Of a stretch of 46,077 nt of DNA, positions 24,388 through 26,012 are shown in pieces. The position numbers and the translations under genes are program-made. The stretch spans positions 1 through 46,077 of the forward strand of contig NZ_JACIGI010000028.1 in the NCBI RefSeq assembly GCF_014197795.1, given 5' to 3'. This stretch comes from Roseospira goensis (GTDB lineage: Bacteria; Pseudomonadota; Alphaproteobacteria; Rhodospirillales; Rhodospirillaceae). Numbering within the stretch: position 1 is the first letter of the stretch; every line of letters starts with the position of its first letter. The notes below the pieces were generated by a model. The model saw only the letters and a program-made list of their open reading frames with translations, was not told where the DNA came from and searched no databases.

Positions 24388-25011
24388 TCAGCCCAGCGCC
24401 CGGGCGTCGTGGCCCGGGGGCGGGGCGGCCTCCGGCGATTGCACCGCCAGTTCGGCCGCGAGGGTGGGGATCACGGCCTCCGGCGAGTCGATCACGGTGA
24501 ACAGGCGGCGGTTGTCGGCGTGGGCGAAGCCTTCGGCGATGATGCGCTCGACGAGCGACAGCAGCGGGTCCCAGTAGCCACCCACGTTGAGCAGCGCGAT
24601 CGGCTTGTCGTGGAGCCGGAGCTGGCGCCAGGTCAGGATCTCGAAGGTCTCGTCCAGGGTGCCGAGGCCGCCGGGCAGGACGCAGAAGGCGTCGGCGCGC
24701 TCGAACATGCCCAGCTTGCGGGTGTGCATGTCGGGCACGACGTGCAGCTCAGGCAGGGTCTCGTCGGCCACCTCGATGCGCTCCAGGTGCTCCGGGATGA
24801 AACCCGCGACATGGCCGCCGGCCGCCGCCGTGGCCCGCGCCAGTTCGCCCATCAGGCCGACACGGCCACCGCCGAACACCAGGGTCTTGCCGGCCTGACC
24901 GATCGCCGTCCCGAGGCGGCGGGCGGTGTCGACCATGTCGGGGTTGGCACCCGGACGGGCGCCGCAGAACACACAGAGGGATGTCAACTCGATCATGGGG
25001 ATGGGGTCCAT
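24388..25011 (-). CDS. LOG-family nucleoside 5'-monophosphate phosphoribohydrolase
   Basis: This 207-residue protein of the TIGR00730/LOG family has LCVFCGARPG at the N-terminus, VFGGGRVGLMG, the MHTRK motif (residues 95-99) and the PGGLGTLDE motif (113-121). Together these form the phosphoribohydrolase active site that releases the base from (iso)cytokinin or purine 5'-monophosphates. Bacterial members are often annotated as cytokinin-activating or as general AMP/CMP phosphoribohydrolases; which applies here is not visible. ATG 25011 is used; ATG 24996, five codons in, fits the family equally well and neither has a strong Shine-Dalgarno. The region upstream contains a CRP-like site at 25173-25188. 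Confidence 0.88.
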   Translation of the reverse strand: MDPIPMIELTSLCVFCGARPGANPDMVDTARRLGTAIGQAGKTLVFGGGRVGLMGELARATAAAGGHVAGFIPEHLERIEVADETLPELHVVPDMHTRKLGMFERADAFCVLPGGLGTLDETFEILTWRQLRLHDKPIALLNVGGYWDPLLSLVERIIAEGFAHADNRRLFTVIDSPEAVIPTLAAELAVQSPEAAPPPGHDARALG

Positions 25012-25172: not shown

Positions 25173-25188
25173 TGTGACTCGGATCACA
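25173..25188. promoter_or_regulatory. Perfect CRP-family binding site TGTGA-CTCGGA-TCACA
   Basis: Both half-sites match the CRP consensus TGTGA-N6-TCACA exactly. The centre (25180.5) is 41.5 bp upstream of position 25222, and TACTCT at 25210-25215 fits a -10 element for a start there, the geometry of a class II CRP promoter. It could instead act on the LOG gene on the other side. The regulator protein is not in the window. Confidence 0.7.
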
Positions 25189-25221
25189 CGTGGCCCGGGC
25201 GGGCCGTCGTACTCTGATGCG

Positions 25222-25349
25222 GCCGGGGGAAGCATGATCCCGTCCGGGTTCGCCTGACGAAGACGTGGTCAGGGTTCCGCCGGTAATTTGTATCCTCTTA
25301 CCCTCAAGACCAGACTGCGGCGGGGTGCGATCCTCGCCGCCCTTTTTTT
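25222..25349 (+). ncRNA. Candidate small non-coding RNA, about 128 nt
   Basis: The 5' end is predicted from the CRP site and -10-like box, and the 3' end from the terminator. The sequence folds into a central hairpin (CCGG 25244-25247 with 25280-25283 and CCTGAC 25253-25258 with GTCAGG 25268-25273, around a symmetrical internal loop). An apparently single-stranded stretch at 25284-25316 contains two pyrimidine runs, CCTCTT and ACCCTC, complementary to GAGG-type Shine-Dalgarno sequences. The terminator stem follows. No open frame of note is present. I do not recognise a named RNA family and cannot exclude a diverged 6S RNA or a leader. Confidence 0.5.
25317..25349 (+). terminator. Strong intrinsic terminator
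   Basis: GCGGCGGGG (25317-25325) pairs with CCTCGCCGC (25332-25340) through nine pairs including one G-U, with a 6-nt loop, followed by CC and seven T residues. It is the best intrinsic terminator in the window, yet no coding gene on the plus strand runs into it. Confidence 0.92.
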
Positions 25350-25475
25350 GCTGACGTCATGACGGGGTCGATCGGGCGCGGCGGGGCGACCCGGGCGATC
25401 CGGGATCAGACCAGGGCGGCGCGCCCCGCTGGTTGGGGGCGCACCGTCTCCATCGGCATCGGACAGGCCCGCGTG

Positions 25476-26012
25476 TCAGTCCTTGCCCGCCTCGGCCGCC
25501 GCGATGGCGGTGCGGATGACGTCGTAGGCTTCCTCCGGGTCGCCCCACCCGATGATCTTGGTCCACTTGCCCTCTTCGAGGTCCTTGTAGTGGGTGAAGA
25601 AGTGTTCGATCCGGTGCAGTTCGGTCGGGCGCACGTCCTTATAATGGTTCACATTGTCATGGTAGGGGTGAAGCTTGGTGTGCGGCACGCCCAGGATCTT
25701 CTCGTCCATGCCGGACTCGTCCTGCATCTTGAGCACGCCGATGGGCCGCACCCGCATCACGGCGCCAACGGCGATGGCCAGCCGCCCGATCACCATCACG
25801 TCGACTGGGTCGCCGTCATCCGACAGGGTGTGCGGAATGAAGCCGTAGTTGACCGGGTATTGCATCGCGGTGTGCAGGATCCGGTCCACATACATGGCGC
25901 CCGAATCCTTGTCGACCTCGTACTTGACCGGCTCGCCGCGCAGCGGAATCTCGATGATGACATTGACATCCTCGGGCGGGTTCTTGCCGATCGGAATCTT
26001 TTTCAGGTCCAT
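25476..26012 (-). CDS. ppa: Inorganic pyrophosphatase (family I)
   Basis: This 178-residue soluble pyrophosphatase hydrolyses PPi to drive biosynthesis. The family signature DDGDPVDVMV gives the metal-binding aspartates (about residues 65-70). Other conserved parts are EIPLRGEPVKYEVDK, YPVNYGFIPHT and the C-terminal EHFFTHYKDLEEGKW. The ATG at 26012 is preceded by a purine-rich GAGAGAGAC. It is a single-gene unit: the next upstream gene is the divergent sarcosine oxidase operon and the downstream side holds the candidate sRNA. Confidence 0.97.
   Translation of the reverse strand: MDLKKIPIGKNPPEDVNVIIEIPLRGEPVKYEVDKDSGAMYVDRILHTAMQYPVNYGFIPHTLSDDGDPVDVMVIGRLAIAVGAVMRVRPIGVLKMQDESGMDEKILGVPHTKLHPYHDNVNHYKDVRPTELHRIEHFFTHYKDLEEGKWTKIIGWGDPEEAYDVIRTAIAAAEAGKD

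Follow-up and report, generated by a model that had tools for sequence, protein, structure and literature searches.

The locus and its features

The window, by which we mean the whole stretch of 46,077 nucleotides analysed here, is contig C28 of the Roseospira goensis genome (G000). Between two minus-strand genes, its plus strand carries an ordered series of elements that we read as a gene for a small RNA (sRNA), preceded by a site for the cyclic-nucleotide receptor protein CRP (Table 1).

Table 1. Features of the predicted sRNA locus and its neighbours in the window.
Feature	Position	Strand	Evidence or remark
CRP site TGTGACTCGGATCACA, palindrome, centre at -41.5	25173..25188	+	equivalent site in 64 distinct promoters
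-10 hexamer TACTCT, 21 nt past the site	25210..25215	+	spacing as in relatives
Predicted sRNA, 128 nt	25222..25349	+	start predicted from spacing; matches to models R1 and R2
5' stem-loop domain	25222..25284	+	fold; SL1 covariation in nine short-form relatives
Conserved core GTATCCTCTTACCCTCAAGA: hairpin UCUU/AAGA with candidate anti-Shine-Dalgarno loop ACCCUC (25300-25305)	25290..25309	+	
Intrinsic terminator, 9 pairs + T7	25317..25349	+	terminator scan
LOG-type protein (TIGR00730 family), neighbour outside the unit	24388..25011	-	
Inorganic pyrophosphatase (ppa), neighbour outside the unit	25476..26012	-	

The CRP site agrees with TGTGA-N6-TCACA at 10/10 letters and is the sole exact match in the window, where 0.02 would be expected and where 2 of 100 shuffled sequences contain one. 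The spacing of TACTCT gives a predicted transcription start that puts the site centre at -41.5, so that both a 16-bp TGTGA-N6-TCACA site and the central position of a class II CRP promoter are found here, the latter on a predicted start. The hexamer itself agrees with TATAAT at 3/6 letters. A general sigma-70 scan of the locus returned no promoter and no -35 match, the latter as would be expected of an activator-dependent promoter. Downstream, the terminator stem (25317-25340) has nine pairs, eight of them G-C, and is followed by CC and seven T residues; the scan found one terminator at the locus against 0.2 expected in shuffles. No plus-strand open reading frame of at least 60 amino acids overlaps 25178-25358. 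In all of this the initial annotation read the DNA accurately: the perfect site, the class II spacing of TACTCT (correct to the base), the absence of a gene on that strand and the nine-pair terminator with seven T residues ending at 25349 were each recovered.

The same annotation had described some 128 nt of structured, non-coding sequence with exposed pyrimidine runs. The length, the non-coding character and the exposure hold, the loop ACCCTC being unpaired in the minimum free energy fold with unpaired probabilities of 0.82 to 1.00, but the overall folding energy is unremarkable (z -1.59, with 15 of 200 shuffles folding equally well). An RNA at this locus is thus not evident from folding energy alone, and the real support for it is comparative. 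In the window the ACCCUC loop closes on a four-pair hairpin, the fifth pair of the family stem being replaced by a C-C mismatch. As a free-standing gene with its own (predicted) promoter and terminator, the unit has the layout of a trans-acting anti-Shine-Dalgarno sRNA. Two other roles were considered and set aside. A leader of a downstream gene was rejected because the RNA stops at its terminator and the plus strand beyond is antisense to ppa. A seven-codon reading at 25234-25257 on the plus strand lies inside the predicted RNA, with a purine-rich stretch before its ATG; a coding RNA was discarded, nothing equivalent to this reading having been seen on looking through short-form transcripts (L007, for example) by eye.

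A family of similar units across the order

Searching 41 genomes at the DNA level recovered the 3' half of the unit from two other genera of the same family. The pattern GTATCCTCTTNCCCTCAA, with one mismatch allowed, matched 17 of 74 same-family genomes at a single place each, except for G013, which has two copies in tandem; the match in G010, with neither site nor terminator, was dismissed as chance. Seventeen aligned copies follow a common plan of CRP-like palindrome, stem of variable sequence, core CUCUU-UCCCUC-AAGAG and terminator (the 21-nt spacing was imposed on this alignment, and the hexamer is poor in L014 and in both L019 copies). Behind the same kind of CRP site, relatives share the core UUCCCUCAAGAG and then a terminator, and the conserved pyrimidine segment reads UUUCCCUC in most copies and UUACCCUC in the window. 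The sequence of the window's 5' domain is not conserved, and relatives bear other stems there. In G013, a further unit (L003, approximately 1222-1370, contig C77) lies upstream of the two tandem copies. It combines a CRP-like site and -10-like box with a terminator, lacks the UCCCUC core, and may be a sibling that has degenerated or diverged. The stretches L207 and L222 (G235 and G238) likewise each have core and terminator twice in tandem.

Two search models were built, R1 and R2, both of which exclude the promoter and both of which had the window copy in their training alignments; in its own genome that copy scores E 2.8e-9 with R1 and 3.8e-11 with R2. At E <= 0.01, R1 found matches in 45 of 318 genomes searched in the order, and members in families f4, f14 and f22 retain UUUCCCUCAAGAG together with a perfect or near-perfect site. 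With R2, 145 of 316 genomes gave a match at E <= 0.05; they come from 75 of the 115 genera, but the weak end of this range includes partial matches, and the 145 are not all members. Five weak R1 matches (L127, L128, L129, L130 and L133) were rejected as non-members, having no site of at least 8/10 upstream except for one of 9/10 in L130; by eye, L130 (G017) resembles suhB. Of 386 genomes sampled evenly across the class, 42 matched at E <= 0.05; the best match outside the order reached 23.2 bits on part of the model, and, judged as a list by score, no copy outside it was convincing. From these matches, the sRNA family looks specific to the order.

The promoter can serve as an independent witness where the search did not contain it. 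A scan of named genomes used the core only, without promoter or terminator, and 26 of its 46 matches are preceded by a GTGA-N6-TCAC site (score 8 to 10 of 10). All but one of these 26 also have a detected terminator, the exception (L082) being cut by the end of the stored DNA, and, going by record titles, all are either alphaproteobacterial or in metagenome-assembled genomes (MAGs) of unresolved Proteobacteria. The remaining 20 have neither such a site nor a terminator (two reach 8/10 without the GTGA-TCAC arms); 19 lie outside the alphaproteobacteria and one in a Rhodobiaceae MAG. Among 40 further stretches, which we chose ourselves from model hits, 33 have a site of at least 9/10 within 230 nt upstream, 26 of them perfect, when the chance rate of such a site is about 0.6% by arithmetic on equal base frequencies; five of the 40 had been seen already, four of these in the R2 alignment, and for new places the count is 29 of 35. 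The seven without such a site include one cut by a contig end and one in G048. Core, terminator and site were found together in 17 families of one order by the labels used, family f25 being counted only through copies with the site less than 50 nt from the core. Cultured genera with the predicted sRNA include Caenispirillum, Novispirillum, Insolitispirillum, Pararhodospirillum and Telmatospirillum.

Promoter geometry and RNA structure

Our table of copies has 80 rows, with some loci entered twice and at least three non-members (L102, which passed a looser terminator test, L133 and L137). For the promoter analysis 11 of these rows were dropped (score below 8, distance below 45 nt, or no upstream DNA) and identical 60-nt stretches were merged, leaving 64 distinct promoters. 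In 58 of the 64 a -10 element stands 20-21 nt after the site: A2 and T6 of the hexamer co-occur at a distance of 21 nt in 46 promoters and of 20 nt in 12, and over 500 letter shuffles no spacing rose above 16%. Six promoters break the rule. Four of the 64 have the site less than 60 nt from the core, where almost no 5' domain would remain, and without these 55 of 60 fit the spacing. GTGA and TCAC are invariant in all 64, in part by selection, since copies were admitted at 8/10 or better; the -10 element is independent of that. The site is preceded, at a distance of 11-14 nt, by an A-rich tract, as would be expected of an upstream contact of RNA polymerase.

The half-site of the redox regulator FNR, TTGAT, has T at position 2. 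At that position of TGTGA, all 64 promoters have G (again partly by admission at 8/10 or better), and control by FNR was rejected; the initial annotation had offered a cAMP or a redox regulator, and the redox half of that reading is not favoured.

Averaged over the RNAs of 63 members, the predicted probability of being unpaired is 0.85 for the pyrimidine core and 0.35 for other five-letter windows ahead of the terminator; the core is the more unpaired of the two in 58 of the RNAs. The family therefore has the conserved and accessible pyrimidine segment looked for in a trans-acting anti-Shine-Dalgarno sRNA. RNAalifold found 5 and 0 pairs in the mixed alignments A1 and A3, because terminators of unequal length misalign; SL1 was therefore counted, on a structure that we named ourselves, in nine related short-form members. 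Every counted cell is paired there, and three pairs have changed on both sides. The covariation score is 0.481; shuffles give 0.240, with none of 500 reaching the observed value, and sliding the structure yields 0 to 0.18. Covariation of SL1 and joint conservation of site and core across the order at class II spacing both favour the regulated sRNA first proposed for this locus.

Patchiness in the genus and the neighbourhood of crp

Close relatives give a less uniform picture. Searched with R1 up to E 2, one of six same-genus genomes (G001) has a copy, L126, in which an ACCCUCAACAG core and a terminator follow a perfect site; R2 gives weak partial matches in G003 and G006. The location is not shared: within 700 nt past ppa, none of the six genomes has a site of at least 8/10. 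Conservation of site and stems in close relatives, on which the initial annotation had staked its reading, is thus poor within the genus (1/6 by R1) but clear within the order. In the same family, L212 (G048) has a good core and terminator, and its best upstream CRP site is only 7/10, so control may have changed there. By the 1/6 genus copies, the unshared location and the 7/10 site in G048, this sRNA family therefore moves, diverges and is lost within genera.

For 31 of 75 collected copies (the 80 rows minus repeats, with the three or more non-members still included), the same strand carries a crp ortholog upstream; several loci are too short upstream to tell, and two of the 31, L196 and L229, lack a good site. 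From the end of the CRP protein match to the core, the distance is 103 to 681 nt in the 31 copies. In L196 and L229 (G255 and G034), core and terminator lie some 320-335 nt downstream of crp, with no good CRP site close upstream. The neighbouring protein has cNMP-binding and Crp helix-turn-helix domains, and the PDB entries that match it best are Vfr and E. coli CRP, 7pza being among the matches listed as well.

The window RNA does not adjoin crp. The ortholog in its genome, with RETVAR in its sequence, lies on a different contig (C6:68589-69260), and two cyclase domains are encoded a few kilobases away on the same strand; their placement within 8 kb (C6:61924-69260) suggests a cyclic-nucleotide signalling cluster. 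The genome has seven cyclase-family matches in all and encodes Hfq. CRP-like readings that are more distant, and that have a single in-frame TGA apiece, occur at G000:C16:23909-24607 and G005:C136:25744-26466. The window copy may be less constrained than copies beside crp.

Known RNA families and candidate targets

The initial annotation had considered that the RNA might be 6S or another known sRNA. With Rfam 15, neither the window nor any of 10 relatives had a family, 6S included, at its gathering score. Up to E 5, the best match in the window region had 15.5 bits, and the only families matched were L20_leader and COG2827, both far below threshold; CyaR was absent. The suhB/mmgR family (RF00519) was rejected as an identity: up to E 5 nothing in the window region matches it, and in the relative L053 it scores 16.2 bits against a threshold of 41. 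A true suhB/mmgR is present elsewhere in the window genome (L131, 1493-1566 on the minus strand, G000:C41; 49.8 bits). We found no earlier description of the family in the titles and abstract openings of open-licence literature among the matches listed; one elsewhere is possible, and the family is apparently undescribed so far.

A search of 16 genomes for the complement of the core, with at most one mismatch, gave 110 matches, 17 of which are the RNA genes themselves. The other 93 compare with 14 for the reversed pattern and lie mostly in coding-like frames, an excess confounded by purine-rich codons. We read 74 of the 93; a few stand at a plausible ribosome-binding site, among them one orthologous pair from a single genus (L259 and L306). 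No target shared between genera was found in these 74 matches from 16 genomes, by a scan that assumes long, near-perfect pairing, so that a short seed would not show.

Interpretation

We think it likely that 25222-25349 encodes a CRP-activated, trans-acting sRNA that masks Shine-Dalgarno sequences, and that it is one copy of an order-wide family. The gene, its promoter geometry, core and terminator, the accessibility of the core and the range across the order are supported by the comparison of genomes. That the RNA is transcribed, that CRP activates rather than represses it, and that Hfq, pairing and targets enter into its working is what we infer. A CRP dimer loaded with cAMP or cGMP would bind the site at -41.5 and activate the class II promoter; the transcript would end at its own terminator; and the exposed pyrimidine segment would pair, probably on Hfq, with GAGGG-type Shine-Dalgarno regions of target mRNAs, whose translation would be lowered while CRP is active. 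A UCCCUC-type segment masking Shine-Dalgarno sequences under CRP activation is the simplest reading.

This reading could be wrong about what the RNA does, or about the state of this one copy, and we consider each of the two unlikely to about the same degree. A real CRP-controlled RNA might bind a protein or act as a sponge for another RNA, with no masking of Shine-Dalgarno sequences, which would suit the lack of a conserved mRNA target and a conserved block that runs past the loop into AAGAGC-AAC, beyond the needs of a six-base seed; yet its most invariant letters form a single-stranded pyrimidine run, the usual make-up of an mRNA-pairing segment. The window copy, for its part, might be a decaying relic of a functional family, given its distance from crp (on another contig), a stem weakened by the C-C mismatch, and its unshared location and absence from most of the genus, but a relic would have to have kept its 10/10 site, its -10 at 21 nt and an intact terminator.

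Less probable still is that CRP represses the promoter or has no effect on it, the RNA being made when CRP is inactive. Activation here is indeed our own reading, and the window hexamer shares three of six letters with TATAAT; against this, -41.5 is where the site of an activator is classically centred, as established for E. coli class II promoters. The window also lacks a -35 match. In Sinorhizobium meliloti, most promoters activated by the CRP-like protein Clr are described as having the site at -42 to -76, and are likened to class I and II (PMC10127613). That the locus belongs to a known family (6S, suhB/mmgR or another in Rfam) or is a chance coincidence of motifs we regard as scarcely credible. 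The anti-Shine-Dalgarno pyrimidine runs and the GGGCCG terminator of many relatives do recall suhB, which the genome has elsewhere, but no Rfam family reached its gathering score in the window or the 10 relatives, suhB stops at 16.2 of 41 bits in L053, and chance is excluded by the core-only scan, the 40 further stretches and the spacing in 64 promoters.

If the RNA is indeed a CRP-activated, Shine-Dalgarno-masking sRNA, it would probably give the cAMP or cGMP signal sensed by CRP an arm that acts on messenger RNAs. It is a real possibility, to which we do not quite give even weight, that crp and the sRNA form a two-gene module of long standing in the order, in which CRP switches on the adjacent RNA and the RNA serves cyclic-nucleotide signalling as a general arm at the post-transcriptional level, masking many ribosome-binding sites, perhaps including crp's own; in the lineage of the window, the RNA would have left crp and kept its promoter. 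A family with a conserved class II CRP promoter and no Rfam entry, often beside crp, makes such an RNA arm of cAMP/cGMP signalling directly testable in the named cultured genera.

Comparison with known systems

Several described sRNAs resemble this one in part. suhB/mmgR is likewise alphaproteobacterial, with an exposed CCUCCC segment beside a GGGCC terminator; it differs in scoring below threshold in L053 and not matching the window, and in having its own true copy on C41. Spot 42 belongs to the CRP network, where it is repressed by CRP, not activated, and it has no Rfam match in the window.

Among alphaproteobacterial RNAs compared here by their descriptions, SMelC181 of S. meliloti is under a CRP-like protein, being described as directly induced by Clr with cAMP or cGMP, with its function unknown (PMC10127613). 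The Caulobacter sibling sRNAs SisA-D are reported to share a motif with an anti-Shine-Dalgarno signature, likely for pairing, and the term Crp is absent from the main text of that paper (PMC12559287). A Magnetospirillum transcriptome names one Rfam sRNA, BjrC80 (PMC9549626).

CyaR is an enterobacterial sRNA, activated by CRP, whose C/U-rich segment pairs with ribosome-binding regions, and a CRP-activated small RNA with a C/U-rich pairing segment is what we propose here. The window sRNA differs in having no Rfam match, in belonging to another order of bacteria and in being often encoded, in its relatives, beside crp. The best reading is of an sRNA that is CyaR-like in its working without being a CyaR.
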